NCBI RefSeq assembly: GCF_000182745.2 | Contig: NC_016027.1 | Location: 1,890,001-1,954,000, forward strand | Direction of reading: 5' to 3' | Source: Komagataeibacter medellinensis NBRC 3288 | Lineage (GTDB): Bacteria; Pseudomonadota; Alphaproteobacteria; Acetobacterales; Acetobacteraceae | Length of the DNA stretch: 64,000 bases | Shown: positions 1,066-16,994 of the stretch, in pieces | How positions within the stretch are numbered: position 1 is the first letter of the stretch | How the letters are laid out: every line of letters starts with the position of its first letter | Notes under the pieces: model-generated | What the model was told of the DNA's origin: nothing | Database searches by the model: none | What the model saw: the letters and a program-made list of their open reading frames with translations, nothing else | Translations under genes and position numbers: made by a program

Positions 1066-2130
1066 TTATTGCTTCTTCTTTGCCAACGTCGGTCCAAGCA
1101 GCAGCAGGTCGGCTGCGGAAAGACGATCCGACGCCGTACTCGCCTGATGCCAGAAGGGATAAAGGATCGGCGGGGCGCTGGCTTCATCAAGGCGACTGAT
1201 TTCTTCCACCGTCAGACTCAGGTCAATGGCCTTGAGGTTATCGACCAGTTGCGCCTCGGTCCGGGCACCGATCAGGACGGATGTCACGGCCGGCCGCTGC
1301 GCCACCCAGGCCAGCGCCACCTGCGCTGCGGAGATGCCACGGCTTTCGGCAATGCTGACCAGCACGTCTACCACGTCATACAGTTTTTCGATGTCATAGA
1401 CCGGGGGTTCGCCCCATTTTTCGATCTGGCGCGTACCTTCGGGCTGTGGCTTGCCACGGCGGTACTTGCCAGACAGCAGGCCGCCCGCCAGCGGGCTCCA
1501 GACCTGCACACCAATGCCCTGGTCCACGGCAACGGGCAGAAGTTCATATTCCGCCTCACGCCCCTGCAGGGAATAGTATATCTGCTGTGACACAGGTGCG
1601 ATCAGGCGGTTACGCTCCGCCGTGGCGAGGGCCTTCATGATATGCCAGGCCGAAAAGTTGGAAACCCCGGCATAACGGATCTTGCCCGCGCGCGTCAGGG
1701 TATCCAGCGCCTCCAGCGTTTCATCCAGAGGGGTCTGGCCATCCCATTCATGCAGGTAATACAGGTCGATATGGTCACGACCCAGACGCTTGAGGCTAGC
1801 CTCGCACGCACTGACAAGATGATAGCGTGACAGACCGGCATCATTGGCGCCCGGCCCCATGTTAAAACGCGCTTTGGTAGTCACCATCACATCGGCGCTG
1901 CGGCCCTTGAGGGCAGCACCGAGAATTTCCTCCGATACACCGGTCGAATAGATATCCGCCGTATCGAACATGTTGATCCCGGCATCAATGCACAGATCGA
2001 TCTGACGGCTGGCCCCGGCAAGATCGGTGTTGCCTGTCTTGGCAAAATTGCCCTTGCCGCCAAATGTCATGGTGCCAAGGGTAAAGGCTGAAATCCGCAG
2101 GCCGGAACGGCCAAGCTGACGGTACTGCAT
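1066..2130 (-). CDS. Aldo/keto reductase family oxidoreductase
   Basis: A 354-residue NADPH-dependent TIM-barrel reductase of carbonyl compounds. The family's catalytic tetrad can be placed at Asp56, Tyr61 (in FDTADIY), Lys86 (VTTKARF) and His127 (YYLHEWD). Length and motifs resemble the YajO/Tas/YhdN-like group; the natural substrate cannot be told. The start MQYRQLGRSG at 2128-2130 is preferred over a longer frame reaching 2304 because homology begins there and GAAGGAT lies about 7 bases upstream. It is followed by a palindromic repeat acting as a probable terminator. Confidence 0.9.
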   Translation of the reverse strand: MQYRQLGRSGLRISAFTLGTMTFGGKGNFAKTGNTDLAGASRQIDLCIDAGINMFDTADIYSTGVSEEILGAALKGRSADVMVTTKARFNMGPGANDAGLSRYHLVSACEASLKRLGRDHIDLYYLHEWDGQTPLDETLEALDTLTRAGKIRYAGVSNFSAWHIMKALATAERNRLIAPVSQQIYYSLQGREAEYELLPVAVDQGIGVQVWSPLAGGLLSGKYRRGKPQPEGTRQIEKWGEPPVYDIEKLYDVVDVLVSIAESRGISAAQVALAWVAQRPAVTSVLIGARTEAQLVDNLKAIDLSLTVEEISRLDEASAPPILYPFWHQASTASDRLSAADLLLLGPTLAKKKQ

Positions 2131-11608: not shown

Positions 11609-12328
11609 TCAGGCTGGCACTATCCGATGCAGACCGGCGCCATTGGCACGCAGCCACTTCTCGGCCTGGCGACGGTGGGGGGTCAACCGATCCACCAGCA
11701 GCCAGAAGTCAGGACCATGATTCATGTGGCGCAGATGCGCCAGTTCGTGGGCGATGATGTAGTGCTGGACCTCCTGCGGAGCCATGACCAGCCGCCAGCA
11801 CAACATGATGGTGCCATCGGATGAACAGCTTCCCCACCGGCTTTTCGTATCGCGCAGCCTGACCTGCACGGGCCGCAAGTCGGCCTGTTCAGCCTGAAGG
11901 CGCAGGCGCGCGGGCAGGAGCACCTGTGCCTGCGCACGCAGGTAGGCCCCCACACGACGGGCAATAAAATCCTCCGCCCCACTGACATGGAGCCTGCCAT
12001 CCTCCAGCCACACACCGCGCCGGGCCTCAGGCGCATGGCGAATCTCAAGGGCTATGCCATCAAGCAGCACCGTGCCGCCATGGCGCAGTTCAGTGGCAGG
12101 CGGCAGACGTGACAGGCCGGCTGCAACCCAGGCGGAATGCGCGCGCAGCAGCGCCAGACCATCCGCCTTGCGCGCGCCACGCGGCAGGGTGATGATGACA
12201 TGACCACTGGCCGGGTCGATCCGCATGGAAATGCGCCGCGCCTGCCGCGATGGGCGCCAGCGCACCGTAACCGTGCCCGATGCAATGGGCACGACCTCCA
12301 GCATCCTGTCGCCCGCGCCGTCAGCCAT
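11609..12328 (-). CDS. YgjP-like M48-type zinc metallopeptidase
   Basis: A 239-residue protein of the YgjP/SprT-like group. The zinc site is visible as IIAHELAHLRHMNHGPDFW, containing HExxH plus a downstream His. It is preceded by the family signature RDTKSRWGSCSSDGTIMLCWRL. The first half has an all-beta pattern (RRISMRIDP, HVIITLPRG). The role of this family is poorly known. It is the last gene of a minus-strand operon; its ATG overlaps the stop of the YcgN-like gene by one base (TGATG). Confidence 0.88.
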   Translation of the reverse strand: MADGAGDRMLEVVPIASGTVTVRWRPSRQARRISMRIDPASGHVIITLPRGARKADGLALLRAHSAWVAAGLSRLPPATELRHGGTVLLDGIALEIRHAPEARRGVWLEDGRLHVSGAEDFIARRVGAYLRAQAQVLLPARLRLQAEQADLRPVQVRLRDTKSRWGSCSSDGTIMLCWRLVMAPQEVQHYIIAHELAHLRHMNHGPDFWLLVDRLTPHRRQAEKWLRANGAGLHRIVPA

Positions 12329-12816
12329 CAGCGCGACCGGGGGCGGCTACGGCAGAATGCATTCCGTGGCGCTTCACCAGGCCAGTCGATCACGTGATCC
12401 TCCAGCATGCCGGCATGACGTTCGCTGATGACCCGGCCACTGACGGATATACCGGCCTCATGCACCGTCTCGGTCGTGCCGGACACCAGCGGGTGCCACC
12501 AAGGCAGCGGCTCCCCATCGCGCAGCAGCACGTAACCACAGGTGGGCGGAAGCCAGTCGATATCGGCCAGCTTGTCCGCCGTCAGCGTAATGCAGTCCTG
12601 CACCCGGCTCTGGCGGTGGGCGTAATCACTGCACTGGCAGGTTTCGGTATTGAGCAGACGGCAGGCGACATCGGTGAAGAGCACGTCATCAGTTTCATCC
12701 TCACGCAGCTTGTGCAGGCAGCACCGGCCGCAGCCATCACATACCGCCTCCCATTGCGGGCGGGTCATCTGGTCGAGGGGCGTCGTTTCCCAGAAGGGTC
12801 GGGTCTTGTCTGTCAT
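12328..12816 (-). CDS. YcgN family cysteine-cluster protein (UPF0260)
   Basis: A 162-residue cytoplasmic protein with the cysteine pattern of the UPF0260/YcgN family: CDGCGRCCLHKL near residue 26, CRLLNTETCQCSDY near residue 52, and further Cys in DCITL and PTCGYVLL. These probably bind zinc or an iron-sulfur cluster; the function of the family is not established. It is tightly coupled to the downstream metallopeptidase and follows the ABC-transporter-like genes by 37 bases. Confidence 0.9.
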   Translation of the reverse strand: MTDKTRPFWETTPLDQMTRPQWEAVCDGCGRCCLHKLREDETDDVLFTDVACRLLNTETCQCSDYAHRQSRVQDCITLTADKLADIDWLPPTCGYVLLRDGEPLPWWHPLVSGTTETVHEAGISVSGRVISERHAGMLEDHVIDWPGEAPRNAFCRSRPRSR

Positions 12817-12853: not shown

Positions 12854-13339
12854 CTACGGCCATGCCGCCGCGGCCATGGCGCACAACATGACCATGGCGG
12901 CACAGCAGGCCACAACACCGGCCAGCGGCCCACCAAGCAGCGGCAGCCACAAAAGGCGCAACCGGGCCTGCGCATCCGCCCCCAGCCCGCTGGCCGTACG
13001 CGCCAGGGTGGGAGGCATGCGCTGCAGCACGCGCAAGAGCGGCCACATGGCGGCAGGGGTCATGAACACGCCCTGCATCATGCACACCGCAACCGATGCC
13101 CCGCGCATGATATCTGGCCACCAGAGCGCCAGCGCCAGCCCGGGCAGCATGCACGCCAGCATGCACCCGCGCAGCACAATACCCAGCCCCGACCGGGCAC
13201 GACGGAGCATGGCATGCCCCCCCAGCACCACCAGGCAAGCCAGCCCCAGCCCCAGCGCCGCATACAGACCATCCACCGCCACCAGGCCGGGGGGCTGGCC
13301 GGTCAGGGCAGGCAGCATCAGCCAGCGCCCCGCAGCCAT
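12854..13339 (-). CDS. Truncated ABC transporter permease-like membrane protein
   Basis: A 161-residue very hydrophobic protein with about four membrane segments. Near residues 113-140 it carries TASGLGADAQARLRLLWLPL, which matches the EAA-loop pattern through which binding-protein-dependent permeases contact their ATPase. It is about half the usual length of a PotB/PotC-type permease, so it looks like the C-terminal half only. Its start lies 22 bases inside the end of the upstream solute-binding-protein gene. Whether it works alone is doubtful, because its partner ATPase is also degenerate. Confidence 0.6.
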   Translation of the reverse strand: MAAGRWLMLPALTGQPPGLVAVDGLYAALGLGLACLVVLGGHAMLRRARSGLGIVLRGCMLACMLPGLALALWWPDIMRGASVAVCMMQGVFMTPAAMWPLLRVLQRMPPTLARTASGLGADAQARLRLLWLPLLGGPLAGVVACCAAMVMLCAMAAAAWP

Positions 13340-14370
13340 ATGTCGAAACGGTGCGACAGAGTGGCATAATGAGCCTGCCAGAACTGCACGTCCATCGGCA
13401 GGACCCGGGCGGGATGACCCGCATCGGGGCGGGGCGTGGTGGCATAATGGGTGGTAAAATTGTCCCGCCTGTCAGGCTGCACGATAAAATGCAGCAGTTC
13501 GCGTGACTGACCCAGCCGGGCCGCCACCTGCCCGGCCACAACACCCCATGACAGACCATAGGACAAAGCCATGTCAGTACTGACACCGATGACGCGCCGA
13601 CCCTGCGCGGGGGACATCATGACTGCATCACTGGGCGCGCTGCTCATGAGTACCTGACCATGGGCCAGAATACTGGCAGCCTGCTGGGGGGTAGACCACC
13701 ATGTTATGTAAGGACGCAACTGGCTGAGCTTGCGAAAGGCGCGGTCCACGCCTGCATCGGTGGAAAGCTGGGCATAGACATCCCCTGGTGCCACACCATC
13801 GGCCATCAGCGCGATCTCCAGCGTGGTACGCGGGTCACGACGCAGGCCGCGCTTGCCGGGAAAGCGCACGACGTCCCAGAAATCCCCCCATTGTGGCGCC
13901 ACCTGTCGCCATGTCGGATCCCATGCCACAACCACCTGCGTGGTCAGGCCCGGCACGCCACAGCCATCGGGATTGGTCGCACTGCCCGCCAGACGCACGA
14001 GCAGGCCGTCCATGCAGGCGGCACGGATGGTGCTGTCTTCGGTAAAGACCAGTGACCATGTATCCGCCGCTGCCGCGTGCAGGCCATGGCGGTCCAGTTC
14101 GGTCAGACTACCATCCCAGGCCCTGTGCGTGACCGACAGCCCCGATTCCTGCATAAAGGGCCGGAAGAAGACGGCATCCTGCACCGGTTCGAGATGTGAC
14201 TCCGCACTGGCCACCACAAGGGCCGGTCTGTGCCGCACCCGAACGGCACCCTGGGCCGGTATGGCCTGCGCCACGGACAGCATGGCCATGGCGGCAACCA
14301 GGCAGAACAGGGCAAAACGGGCAGGGCTGCGGATTACGGGCTGGAACACGGACAGGAAACAGTCTTTCAA
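13318..14370 (-). CDS. Extracellular solute-binding protein of a polyamine/iron-type ABC system
   Basis: About 350 residues. A positively charged start and hydrophobic stretch (RSPARFALFCLVAAMAMLSV, then AQAIPAQG) form a signal peptide, so the protein is periplasmic. The rest resembles PotD/AfuA-type binding proteins (LVFTEDSTIR, VVVAWDPTW, WWSTPQQAA) and ends in a tryptophan-rich tail. The start is uncertain: TTG at 14368-14370, GTG at 14347-14349, or an ATG at 14448 inside the upstream gene. I prefer the TTG because it gives a normal signal peptide. The ligand is unknown. Confidence 0.65.
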   Translation of the reverse strand: MKDCFLSVFQPVIRSPARFALFCLVAAMAMLSVAQAIPAQGAVRVRHRPALVVASAESHLEPVQDAVFFRPFMQESGLSVTHRAWDGSLTELDRHGLHAAAADTWSLVFTEDSTIRAACMDGLLVRLAGSATNPDGCGVPGLTTQVVVAWDPTWRQVAPQWGDFWDVVRFPGKRGLRRDPRTTLEIALMADGVAPGDVYAQLSTDAGVDRAFRKLSQLRPYITWWSTPQQAASILAHGQVLMSSAPSDAVMMSPAQGRRVIGVSTDMALSYGLSWGVVAGQVAARLGQSRELLHFIVQPDRRDNFTTHYATTPRPDAGHPARVLPMDVQFWQAHYATLSHRFDIWLRGAG

Positions 14371-14396
14371 GCATTGGGCGGCACGATGGCCGGACG

Positions 14397-15509
14397 CTAC
14401 CCCATTTCCCCCCGGAACGGAAAGGCAATTGCCTGCCCCGGCTGCCACGCCAGCACCGCAACCTGCCCTGGTGCCACACGTTGCAGAGCGGGGGTAGGCG
14501 GCCTGCGGGCCAGCAGTTCCTCCCCATTCGCCAGCCGGAACCGCAGCAGGACATGGTCACCCATCTGCCGCAGATCTGTCAGCGTTGCTTCCAGCAGGGG
14601 CGGGGCATCGGGATCATCGGTCACAGGCACAGCACGGGTGGGAAACAGGACCGCAATCCGGTCAGGACGGATGCACAGCGTGGCCAACTGGTCGGCCACC
14701 ACACCGGGCGCAGCCATGGCTTCGACCAGCAGGCCACCGGGCAGGTGGGCACGGACCACGTCATCCTCCACACTGGCCACGCGCACCGTCAGGCTGTTGG
14801 CATGGCCAAAGCCGGTGGCCACGCGGTCACAGGCCGGGCGCTCGAACAGGTCCAGCGCCGTGCCCTGCTGCACGATTTCCGGGCCTGACATGTAGGCAAT
14901 CGTATCACCCAGCAGCAGCGCATCCTCCCGCGCACGGGTAAGCAGCACCACGCACAGCCCCCGCGCGCGCACAAGCCGGCCGACAAGACGGCGCATGGCC
15001 GTGCGCGATGCGGGGGGCAGCGGGGTGAAGGGATCATCCAGCACCAGCACCGGCGGCTCGGACACCAGGGCGCGACCGATCATGACACGCAGCACCTGTT
15101 CTGGCCCGAGCCGGGCGGGACGCAGGTGTCCTACCCCGTCAAGCCCCAGAAGCGCCAGGATGGCGCCCACCCTTGCCGCCACCACCCGTGCATCCACCCC
15201 GCGTGCCCGCAGCCCGAAGGCAAGGTTGGCCTGGACCGTCATGTGTGTGAACAATGGGTCGCGCCACCCTACCGCTACACACAGGCGGCGGGGCGGTGGC
15301 AGGCCAGTCACGTCGTGGTCATCGATCACGACCTGCCCCGCATGCGCCGCCACATGGCCCGCCAGCATGTCCGCCAGCGTGGAAAGACAGGCTGCGTCGT
15401 CATTCACTACCGCCAGGCATGCTCCCGCTGCGGCGCGCAGCGAGAGCGCCGGCGCGCCGGGAACAGCCGTAAGCGCGTTGACAACCAGCCGAGAGGAGAA
15501 AGGAGACAT
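14397..15509 (-). CDS. Degenerate PotA-like ABC ATPase homologue (predicted pseudo-ATPase)
   Basis: The 370-residue length, the fold pattern and the C-terminal TOBE-like part match PotA-type importer ATPases. Every catalytic motif is altered. The P-loop position reads VVNDDAACLSTLADMLAG, with no GxxGxGK. The signature reads LGPEQVLRVMIGRAL instead of LSGGQ. Walker B ends VLVLDDPFTPLP, with Asp for the catalytic Glu and a lost D-loop. The switch His is absent (LLTRARED). ATP hydrolysis is therefore unlikely. The start has a strong AGGAG-type site. It heads the operon with a binding protein and a half permease. Confidence 0.7.
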   Translation of the reverse strand: MSPFSSRLVVNALTAVPGAPALSLRAAAGACLAVVNDDAACLSTLADMLAGHVAAHAGQVVIDDHDVTGLPPPRRLCVAVGWRDPLFTHMTVQANLAFGLRARGVDARVVAARVGAILALLGLDGVGHLRPARLGPEQVLRVMIGRALVSEPPVLVLDDPFTPLPPASRTAMRRLVGRLVRARGLCVVLLTRAREDALLLGDTIAYMSGPEIVQQGTALDLFERPACDRVATGFGHANSLTVRVASVEDDVVRAHLPGGLLVEAMAAPGVVADQLATLCIRPDRIAVLFPTRAVPVTDDPDAPPLLEATLTDLRQMGDHVLLRFRLANGEELLARRPPTPALQRVAPGQVAVLAWQPGQAIAFPFRGEMG

Positions 15510-15607
15510 GCGATAACAGAAACCTGACTGGGGGGATAACGCGTTATAAGCAATGGTTACCTCCTTACCAGAGGATTATCCGCACTTTACCCGCAAAGGA
15601 TACGATC

Positions 15608-15865
15608 ATGAGCAAGACCGACTCCATCAAGAATGTCACGCATGAAGACCTGCAGGCCCTGAAAACCCATGTCGAGAACCTGCTGCATACCCATGGCAAG
15701 CAGGCCCTGCACGACGTGGCCAGCAAGGCCGAAAAGCTGGCCGGGCAGGCCCGCGAAAGCCTGGAGGAGCATGCCCCCAAGAAAAACGGTTCACGCGCTC
15801 GTTCGCTGGTGGCTATCGCCATTTTCTCGGCAATCGGGTATTTCCTTGGCCGTGCAACGAAATAG
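15608..15865 (+). CDS. YqjD/ElaB-like (DUF883) membrane-anchored protein
   Basis: An 85-residue protein with an amphipathic, coiled-coil-like N-terminal two thirds (LQALKTHVENLLHTHGKQAL), a basic stretch (KKNGSRARS), and one C-terminal membrane segment (LVAIAIFSAIGYFLGRATK). This is the layout of DUF883 proteins, which in enterobacteria are inner-membrane ribosome-binding, stationary-phase proteins. AAAGGAT precedes the ATG. The membrane gene 40 bases downstream is probably co-transcribed. Confidence 0.75.
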   Translation: MSKTDSIKNVTHEDLQALKTHVENLLHTHGKQALHDVASKAEKLAGQARESLEEHAPKKNGSRARSLVAIAIFSAIGYFLGRATK

Positions 15866-15905: not shown

Positions 15906-16331
15906 ATGAAAATAGGCGAACTCGGTAAAACCATCATCGAAGGGGAACTGACCCTACGCAAACTGATGGCGATCCGTCTGGGGCGTCAGGCCGCATTTCT
16001 GATTGTGGCAGCAGTCTTTGCCTTTTTTGCCGCCATTACCGGCCATGGGCTGCTGTGGGCGCTGTGTTACCAGACCTTCGGCTTCAGCGCCCTTGGCGCG
16101 GCGGCAACGGTTTTTGGTTTTGACGTGCTGATCGTGCTTATGGGGCTGGTCATGGGGCGGCGTTCGTACATGACACCGGAGGAAATCCGGGTACGATTCG
16201 CACGCGAACACGCCATGAATGAACTGCGCCAGAGCCTTGCGCTGTCAGCCGTCGCGGCCACGATGGCGGGTCCACTGACCCGCCATACCGGCCGCGCGGT
16301 ATGGAACCTGTTCCGCGGCCGGGCTAGATAA
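15906..16331 (+). CDS. Small inner-membrane protein, phage-holin-family/YqjE-like
   Basis: A 141-residue protein with two adjacent membrane segments (AAFLIVAAVFAFFAAITGHG and an Ala/Gly/Leu-rich second segment ending in VLIVLMGLVMGRRS), then a charged helix (EEIRVRFAREHAMNELR). The order after a DUF883 gene mirrors yqjD-yqjE of enterobacteria. The assignment is by layout rather than by a strong motif; function unknown. Confidence 0.6.
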   Translation: MKIGELGKTIIEGELTLRKLMAIRLGRQAAFLIVAAVFAFFAAITGHGLLWALCYQTFGFSALGAAATVFGFDVLIVLMGLVMGRRSYMTPEEIRVRFAREHAMNELRQSLALSAVAATMAGPLTRHTGRAVWNLFRGRAR

Positions 16332-16356: not shown

Positions 16357-16390
16357 CTATCTGGCAATGATCCACCTCATTGCCAGATAG
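16357..16390. promoter_or_regulatory. Perfect 14-bp inverted repeat upstream of the MarR gene
   Basis: CTATCTGGCAATGA (16357-16370) and TCATTGCCAGATAG (16377-16390) are exact inverted arms around six bases. No T-run follows, so an operator or an RNA hairpin is more likely than an intrinsic terminator. It lies 125 bases ahead of the marR-like start and 26 bases after the previous gene. Confidence 0.6.
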
Positions 16391-16456
16391 TATCCATGCT
16401 GAAATTGCATTGGCTCACATTGTCGTTTTCTGGAAACGTGCAGCTTGTGGATATAC

Positions 16457-16483
16457 TAAGCACGCAAATGGTTTGCATGCTTA
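16457..16483. promoter_or_regulatory. Candidate MarR-family operator
   Basis: TAAGCACGCAAA (16457-16468), TGG, TTTGCATGCTTA (16472-16483) form a 12-bp inverted repeat with one mismatch. It lies about 31 bases before the start of the MarR-type regulator and overlaps its expected promoter. Size and position suit autoregulation of the efflux operon. Confidence 0.65.
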
Positions 16484-16514
16484 TTACCTGTATGTCCCCC
16501 GCTGGCGGAACCCG

Positions 16515-16994
16515 ATGCCCGATCTGGAGCGCAACAAGAAGGAACTGTCGTTTGGTCGTCGCCTTGCCCGGCTTGGAGCAGCTTGGCGCAGGCAGGTCGA
16601 CCACGACCTGCGTGACTATGGCCTGACCGAGGCCACATGGCGACCCGTGCTGTATCTGGGCCTCCTGCCGCCCCCCGTGCGCCAGACCGACCTTGTACGC
16701 GCCCTGGAGATCGAGGCTCCGTCCGTTGCCCGTCTTCTCGATGTACTGGAACGCCGTGACCTGGTGTTCCGTTCCCCCGATCATACAGACAAACGCTCCA
16801 AGCTGGTCAGCCTGACCGAAAAAGGCGAACGGACCGCCCGCCAGGTCCGCCATGCGGTGGAAGCCGTATCCAGCCGCCTGCTGCAGGGTATCTCCACGCC
16901 TGAACTGCTGGCCTGCTATTCCGTATTCGAACGGATCGAGGCCAATCTGTGCAGCAGGCCCGTCCCCCCTGCAAACGCGGCACCCCAGCCATGA
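16515..16994 (+). CDS. MarR family transcriptional regulator
   Basis: A 159-residue winged-helix regulator. The DNA-binding region includes VRQTDLVRALEIEAPSVARL (helix-turn-helix) and the wing RSPDHTDKRSKLVSLTEKG, a signature of MarR proteins. The ATG at 16515 is chosen over an upstream one at 16380 because homology starts shortly after MPDLERNKKEL. It probably represses the downstream efflux genes through the inverted repeat just upstream. Its stop overlaps the next small reading frame by four bases (ATGA). Confidence 0.9.
   Translation: MPDLERNKKELSFGRRLARLGAAWRRQVDHDLRDYGLTEATWRPVLYLGLLPPPVRQTDLVRALEIEAPSVARLLDVLERRDLVFRSPDHTDKRSKLVSLTEKGERTARQVRHAVEAVSSRLLQGISTPELLACYSVFERIEANLCSRPVPPANAAPQP

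Follow-up and report, generated by a model that had tools for sequence, protein, structure and literature searches.

A dismantled PotABCD-type importer locus with a motif-less ATPase, retained across genera of the Acetobacteraceae

Organization of the operon

The stretch of DNA analysed here, hereafter the window, comprises 64,000 nucleotides of Komagataeibacter medellinensis NBRC 3288 (NC_016027.1, positions 1,890,001 to 1,954,000) and carries three co-directional minus-strand frames (15509 to 12854) in the order ATPase, binding protein and permease stub. The first encodes a homologue of importer ATPases of the adenosine triphosphate (ATP)-binding cassette (ABC) type in which the consensus ATP motifs are lost, and which recurs in this state in 18 genera of the family. 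In the window, the ATPase and binding-protein genes are separated by 47 nucleotides, and the binding-protein and stub genes overlap by 22 nucleotides. An earlier, sequence-only reading of this DNA had described a polyamine-type importer operon at this position; the three frames and their family assignment stand, but the extent of the permease and the ribosome site had to be revised. Relatives are referred to below by genome (G), locus (L) and genus (g) labels, and the features of the locus are collected in Table 1.

The 370-residue ATPase frame is open, as had been claimed, but a strong ribosome site in front of it was not recovered. In the intergenic stretch 15510-15607, the nearest GGAGG lies 50 nucleotides upstream of the ATPase ATG, and the sequence AGGAGAAAGGAGACATG adjoining position 15509 reads on the opposite strand to the ATPase. 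An ATT codon that follows the GGAGG in Komagataeibacter, and would be a rare start, was weighed as an alternative and rejected; the start is kept at the ATG at 15509 because in locus L100 (genus g97) an in-frame TAG separates the ATT position from the ATG. The same intergenic stretch, which lies between divergent genes, contains conserved blocks, and GTCAGGTTTCTGTTATCGCATG is common to the window and genus g97. For the binding protein, GTG at 14349 is the most likely start on comparison with relatives, since the same start position is found in 16 of 17 of them. Its N-terminus, described earlier as a clean signal peptide, is signal-peptide-like by eye.

Table 1. Position and basis of assignment of the features at the locus (coordinates of the window)
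Feature	Position	Strand	Basis
Predicted dead PotA/MalK-type ATPase (nucleotide-binding domain and TOBE domain), 370 residues	14397-15509	-	Pfam ABC_tran, TOBE_2; alignment; predicted fold
P-loop equivalent N36-T44, NDDAACLST (intact: GPSGSGKTT); Walker A Lys replaced by Leu42	15378-15404	-	Alignment
R83-H89, RDPLFTH, clade-specific, Q-loop/coupling-helix groove	15243-15263	-	Alignment; RDP in 66/86 dead loci
Signature equivalent, LGPEQVLR (intact: LSGGQQQR)	15087-15110	-	Alignment
Walker B/D-loop equivalent, VLVLDDPFTPLP (intact: LVLMDEPLGALD)	15015-15050	-	Alignment
Switch (H-loop) equivalent, VLLTRAR (intact: VYVTHDQ); His replaced by Arg192	14928-14948	-	Alignment
PotD-like (SBP_bac_8) binding protein, 343 residues, GTG start	13318-14349	-	Pfam; start conservation
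Permease stub, 161 residues	12854-13339	-	Family profile against E. coli PotC
EAA-type loop (stub residues 114-135), RTASGLGADAQARLRLLWLPLL	12935-13000	-	Stub alignment; PotC alignment
CxxCxxCC-domain gene, conserved downstream neighbour	12328-12816	-	Pfam PF03692; 16/17 dead loci
YgjP-like metallopeptidase gene, conserved downstream neighbour	11609-12328	-	Pfam PF01863; 15/17 dead loci
DUF883-like gene, divergent, ancestral upstream neighbour	15608-15865	+	G115 homologue: DUF883_C below cut-off
Holin-like small membrane protein gene, divergent, ancestral upstream neighbour	15906-16331	+	Phage_holin_3_6 far below cut-off

Loss of the ATP motifs and predicted fold of the ATPase

The ATPase matches the Pfam families ABC_tran (40.3 bits) and TOBE_2 (46.1 bits), both above their cut-offs, and scores 140.4 bits with the curated NCBIfam model potA (TIGR01187), below the cut-off of 355.6 bits; a profile of the dead ATPases matches E. 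coli PotA at 2.1e-56. Residues are numbered on the 370-residue frame, and the motifs were read from an alignment with an intact relative. The losses listed in the sequence-only reading, i.e., the P-loop Lys, the signature, the Walker B Glu, the D-loop and the switch His, are all seen in this alignment (Table 1). In the Walker B segment VLVLDD the Asp is kept and the catalytic Glu is replaced by Asp, whereas the D-loop reads TPLP, with Pro in place of Asp. The Q-loop Gln is replaced by Trp82, in a segment that reads AVGWRDPLFTH where the intact relative has VVFQSFALFPH. From these replacements the ATPase is predicted to be catalytically dead. A second ATPase gene, which was looked for in the operon only, is absent there.

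An AlphaFold2 model of the ATPase (14 rows) has a mean predicted local distance difference test (pLDDT) score of 69.0, with values of 82-94 across residues 81-190. In a fold comparison, where ranks within Z 1 were counted as ties, the 50 matches listed have Z 22.6-25.7; they include MetN (PDB code 3tui; Z 25.1, root-mean-square deviation (rmsd) 2.3, 228 residues aligned), AlgS (4tqu; Z 25.7, rmsd 10.9, 317 aligned) and E. coli PotA (8y5f; Z 23.7, rmsd 11.4, 322 aligned). The predicted fold is intact and resembles that of MalK/MetN-type ATPases.

Distribution and descent

The same frame is found in 18 further genomes of the genus, 75-86% identical to that of the window, none with a stop and one cut by a contig end. 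Of 397 Acetobacteraceae genomes, 81, from 18 genera, match a profile built from 22 dead copies at 349-544 bits; the next genome scores 331.5 bits, and none of the 81 dead ATPases has a stop in the matched stretch. In these profile searches only the five best first-look candidates were scored per genome, and absences are not proof. Below the score gap, the nine copies inspected in G211, G118, G194, G115, G097, G087, G299, G028 and G034 have canonical motifs, and those of G105, G094, G030, G139 and G103 are part-decayed. The frames in G167 and G322 are split while those of their congeners are intact, as would be expected from loss in progress or from an assembly error. A spread beyond the family was considered and rejected: among 385 class-level genomes there are two matches at E 1e-95, one being the window's own genome and the other of the same family. 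A plasmid-borne origin was likewise rejected, as a search of plasmid records gave no hit to the ATPase at E 1e-50.

Motif positions were scored across 86 dead loci, i.e., the 81 less the window, together with G158 and five further genomes of the same genus. The Walker A Lys is found in 0 of 84 (two have gaps), LSGGQ in 0 of 86 and the Walker B Glu in 0 of 86, while the Q-loop Gln and the switch His each occur in 2 of 86. Of the 86 loci, 56 retain the Walker B Asp and 34 the D-loop Asp.

In a tree of 52 rows, built by a quick maximum-likelihood method with no bootstrap, the 31 dead rows stand on one side of a branch with a Shimodaira-Hasegawa-like approximate likelihood ratio (SH-aLRT) value of 100. 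The dead rows lie inside the canonical ATPases of the family, with the intact ones below and the five part-decayed ones between, and the dead ATPase has a single origin. In G194, G087, G299 and G115 an intact ATPase, PotD, PotB and PotC are encoded in this order. Upstream of the intact operon, G299 has DUF883-like, holin-like and enoyl-CoA-hydratase genes and G115 the first two of these; in G194 and G087 mlaE and mlaF lie downstream (Pfam matches of the query copies: MlaE, ABC_tran and ECH_2). The locus thus descends in place from an intact importer.

Several states of decay are found among the relatives. An intact ATPase and a binding protein with no adjoining permease are encoded in G097, G118 and G211. 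The Walker A Lys is kept in G094, G105 and G030, where the signature and the switch His are lost; G105 also keeps the Walker B Glu. All three of Walker A Lys, signature and switch His are lost in G139 and G103, the latter still with the Walker B Glu. Loss of the permeases may have come before that of the ATPase, because L130, L132 and L137 keep an intact ATPase without an adjoining permease. The stub, in turn, may be older than the dead ATPase, because a short permease with an EAA-like loop stands beside an ATPase with a Walker A Lys in G105, which could represent an early stage of the stub.

The permease stub and the docking elements

With the permease models of Pfam and NCBIfam the stub gives matches below threshold only. 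Its family profile matches E. coli PotC (E 2.5e-5) with the EAA loop aligned; as to its parent permease, matches to PotB and PotC are mixed. All six columns that are invariant among 18 aligned stubs (R114, L119, G120, A121, W131 and P133) lie in the EAA loop; the very divergent stubs of G127 and G112 were left out of this alignment. By a simple hydropathy scan, the stub of the window has three strong segments and those of relatives have three or four. On alignment with intact permeases of relatives, the stub appears to correspond roughly to transmembrane helices TM2-TM5 with the EAA loop; of a PotB/PotC-type permease, TM1 with its periplasmic insert and the final helix appear to be missing. 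The description of a C-terminal permease half with an EAA-like loop is therefore retained for the loop but not for the half. Where a type I importer has two full permease domains with EAA loops, the operon encodes the one stub only. A stub match is present in 82 of the 86 dead-clade loci, G027 and G001 being cut by contig ends, and the position of the EAA Glu is occupied by Arg in 75 of the 82 stubs. In the part-decayed G105 (L124, approximately 1086-1510, minus strand) a short hydrophobic frame follows the binding protein and contains an EAA-like loop, TRSAAAAGAS...LLLPAMAPG.

On the ATPase side, two features set the clade apart: the new RDP triplet at residues 83-85, and an Asp in 76 of 84 dead loci at position 47, which aligns to the Arg of PotA VLRLIAG. 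Both sit in the region that faces the EAA loop in MalK. According to a passage in PMC7658222, the EAA helix is received by the F81-Y87 region of MalK, and the RDP triplet maps to the region matching this groove.

The binding protein

The binding protein matches SBP_bac_8 with 67.1 bits against a Pfam cut-off of 27. Its N-lobe is eroded, and in several genera shortened, and a conserved block spans approximately residues 161-220. Conservation was compared between 17 dead rows, two of which have no letters in the N-lobe part, and 7 rows from relatives with an intact ATPase. In the dead rows, conservation is higher in blocks 161-180 and 201-220 (0.75-0.76 versus 0.59-0.61) and slightly lower in block 181-200 (0.62 versus 0.67). 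The N-lobe motif SWGG(A/P)Y of intact relatives, for which we assume a role in ligand binding, is absent from the window and from the 15 of 17 dead rows that have letters there; it is also altered in G097, G118 and G211 despite their intact ATPases. An altered N-lobe is likewise observed at L130, L132 and L137, where the ATPase is intact and no permease lies next door.

A profile of the binding protein has a match at E 1e-8 in 313 of 397 genomes, the weaker ones possibly being other PotD-like proteins, and the genome of the window has one match only among the five candidates scored. It is the binding protein, rather than the ATPase, that is kept most widely. At eight loci (L115-L118, L120, L123, L126 and L127) mlaE lies directly downstream of a binding protein of the same family with no ATPase of its own adjacent, and at the small-genome loci L209, L210, L211, L216 and L135 its gene precedes the CxxCxxCC and YgjP-like genes, with ATPase and stub gone.

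Selection on the three genes

Ratios of nonsynonymous to synonymous substitution rates (dN/dS) were calculated by the Nei-Gojobori method for 18 Komagataeibacter sequences, using pairs with dS 0.1-1.2; in the binding-protein set, the G012 sequence had been extracted with a start too far upstream. The medians are 0.203 for the ATPase (153/153 pairs), 0.323 for the binding protein (153/153) and 0.451 for the stub (152/153). For control genes they are 0.094 (CxxCxxCC), 0.173 (YgjP-like), 0.106 (DUF883-like) and 0.126 (holin-like), and 0.089 and 0.027 for two genes that we take from their sequences to be NAD kinase and EmrA-like. Medians for the ATPase in six other genera range from 0.11 to 0.37, four of the six resting on 4-7 usable pairs. 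Over the distance to K. rhaeticus, a simple substitution count (kappa 2, indels ignored) predicts without selection approximately 6 stops in the ATPase, 15 in the binding protein and 6 in the stub; for the ATPase, the probability of no stop over this distance alone is approximately 0.003.

Stops, frameshifts or dN/dS near 1, the usual marks of a pseudogene, are not seen in the window or in the 18 same-genus frames, and such marks occur in the single relatives G167 and G322. The sequence-only reading had named two outcomes that would speak for decay, canonical motifs in close orthologues and random substitution. In the dead clade the Walker A Lys, LSGGQ and the Walker B Glu are absent from every locus scored, and random substitution is not seen, given the ATPase dN/dS of 0.20 and an RDP triplet in 66 of 86 loci. 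Since the dead clade has no canonical motif set and the substitutions are non-random, the genes appear, in most of the 18 genera, to be retained rather than simply decaying.

Neighbouring genes

Downstream, 37 nucleotides separate the stub from the CxxCxxCC-domain gene, which is presumably YcgN-like and abuts the YgjP-like metallopeptidase gene. The window copies of the divergent DUF883-like and holin-like genes have no Pfam match above cut-off, and their G115 homologues match DUF883_C and Phage_holin_3_6, both below cut-off. At the 17 dead loci inspected the holin-like gene recurs in 17, the CxxCxxCC gene in 16 and the YgjP-like gene in 15, the missing cases being ends of a contig or of the fetched stretch. 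The arrangement is more than chance, because the same flanking genes recur at these loci. Further upstream, the first approximately 40 residues of an open reading frame at 16380-16994, which we take to be MarR-like, match most relatives in another frame than the remainder. For this reason its true start is probably an internal ATG, and the DNA upstream of it would be conserved for another reason.

Discussion

An ATP-independent membrane scaffold or sensor, derived from a dismantled importer, is in our view the best reading of the locus, and we give it a probability of roughly 0.45. Purifying selection, mostly open frames, conserved docking elements and a conserved gene order are all observed. 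A non-transporting complex is favoured because conservation falls on the parts that could keep the three proteins in contact, whereas those for ATP hydrolysis, for solute movement and, probably, for closure on a ligand have been lost. On a wider scale, and with somewhat less confidence, a clade-wide "pseudo-importer" can be tentatively proposed, in which a whole type I ABC importer was rebuilt as an ATP-independent transmembrane complex in 18 Acetobacteraceae genera, while sister genera still preserve intermediate states of this conversion.

The ancestor would have been a complete PotABCD-type type I importer of the Acetobacteraceae with the order ATPase-PotD-PotB-PotC. One lineage would then have lost transport, the ATPase motifs being lost once and the permeases reduced to one short stub, and the ligand motif in the N-lobe of the binding protein would have disappeared. 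The dead ATPase, held together via its TOBE domain, could grip the stub through the coupling groove and the EAA loop, and the stub would link it to the periplasmic binding protein. We infer that the three proteins still assemble, forming a scaffold or receptor across the inner membrane with sensing or scaffolding as its output.

Several observations weigh against such a complex. The stub is weakly constrained, with a dN/dS median of 0.451 in the genus and of 0.555 in g67, where values reach 1.02; its structure prediction is unusable (pLDDT 52.6); and in two g81 genomes, G098 and G258, no stub frame follows the binding-protein gene. Five genera with genomes of 1.9-2.7 Mb (g57, g125, g94, g85 and g14) have the binding-protein gene before the CxxCxxCC and YgjP-like genes, without ATPase or stub. 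The dead-ATPase profile finds nothing at E 1e-40 among the five candidates scored in each of G074, G142, G111 and G102 (g57, g125, g94 and g85), and in G031 (g14) it has a match at 3.9e-50, away from the locus. The binding protein seems to serve some independent function, because these small-genome genera keep its gene though ATPase and stub are gone. Frames are also damaged in single relatives. G158 has a truncated dead copy below the score gap, for which no ATPase N-terminus was found; in G322 (L188), one of the 81, the match starts at profile position 53 with the N-terminus in another frame, where a sequencing error is possible; in G167 (L215) the ATPase and the binding protein each run over two frames; and the binding-protein match of G249 contains one TAA. 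Mean pairwise identity across genera is 0.40 for the dead ATPase (18 rows) versus 0.64 for the intact one (9 rows), two sets that differ in depth.

The docking elements themselves call for caution. In canonical systems Arg47 of MalK forms a salt bridge with the EAA Glu, and a charge-swapped bridge between Asp47 and the EAA Arg was considered here. It is kept as an idea only, because the Arg is older than the loss (it is present in both permeases of G194, G299 and G087 and in the first of G115), because the co-change events are too few (four independent changes, two in step, p 0.5), and because replacement of the EAA Glu by Ala in MalF (E401) and MalG (E190) has little to no effect on maltose uptake, as stated in a passage of PMC5730181. 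The EAA loop of DppB also reads RTA in the part of PMC12136057 that deals with it. The new role, as opposed to simple decay, that was proposed in the sequence-only reading agrees with retention in most of the 18 genera, but sensing or scaffolding as such is placed in question by the weak constraint on the stub and its absence from G098 and G258, the genera with a binding protein only, and the broken frames of G167 and G322.

These same observations lend themselves to another explanation, uneven erosion, a close rival that we hold to be only slightly less probable: the periplasmic binding protein would be useful alone, and the ATPase and stub would be relics held open by operon position or translational coupling. 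The wide distribution of the binding-protein profile, its occurrence without an adjacent ATPase beside mlaE and in the five small-genome genera, the broken frames and lost stubs, and the stub dN/dS of 0.45 would all follow, as would the raised conservation of binding-protein blocks 161-180 and 201-220, if not that of block 181-200. Erosion is less easily reconciled with the ATPase, where 81 of 81 copies have no stop in the matched stretch, where approximately six stops would be predicted without selection over the distance to K. rhaeticus alone, where clade-specific residues are fixed across genera, and where the dN/dS of 0.20 is below that of the binding protein (0.32) and near that of the YgjP-like gene (0.17).

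It is improbable that the stub, or a permease encoded elsewhere, imports with another MalK-type ATPase while the dead subunit regulates. Multitask ATPases that energise several importers do exist, as described in a section of PMC7658222, and the genome contains 47 ABC ATPase family matches. However, the helix at either end of a permease and its periplasmic part would be missing from the stub, the genome of the window has the single binding-protein profile match noted above, and the N-lobe motif is gone. A recent pseudogene of one strain or a sequencing artefact, for which nothing speaks beyond the motif loss itself, is very improbable and was rejected in view of the stop-free frames in 18 further genomes of the genus, the spread over 81 genomes and 17 other genera, and the single dead clade.

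A scaffold or sensor of the kind favoured here would differ from known systems in several respects. The PotABCD importer (E. coli, PDB codes 8y5f and 8zx1) is similar in the matches to PotA and PotC and in the operon order of intact relatives, but the present locus has no consensus ATP motif, no full permease and an eroded binding-protein N-lobe. The ATPases of MalK-type type I importers share the fold and the TOBE domain; unlike in these, the Walker A Lys, LSGGQ and the catalytic Glu are absent here from every dead locus scored. Binding proteins free of a transporter are used as sensors, e.g., NspS with MbaA, and such sensors are alike in having a PotD-like protein without a working transporter; here, in contrast, ATPase and stub remain beside the binding protein in most of the 18 genera. 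Loss of the Walker A Lys, the signature or the catalytic Glu at one site is known from type I exporters and from the fused RbsA/NupO importers, according to passages in PMC7756269 and PMC11466899. Transporters with one degenerate site keep one consensus site, whereas the only ATPase gene of this operon has none. Our searches of open-access papers yielded no description of a family of importer ATPases whose members, each the product of the sole ATPase gene of its operon, are motif-less yet kept across many genera.

For these genes, annotation as polyamine uptake should be avoided. The locus presents a natural series that starts with an intact importer, passes through stages without a permease or poor in motifs and ends with the dead form, and therefore the order in which the parts of a transporter are lost, and the roles of the TOBE domain and of docking without ATP, become testable in culturable industrial bacteria.

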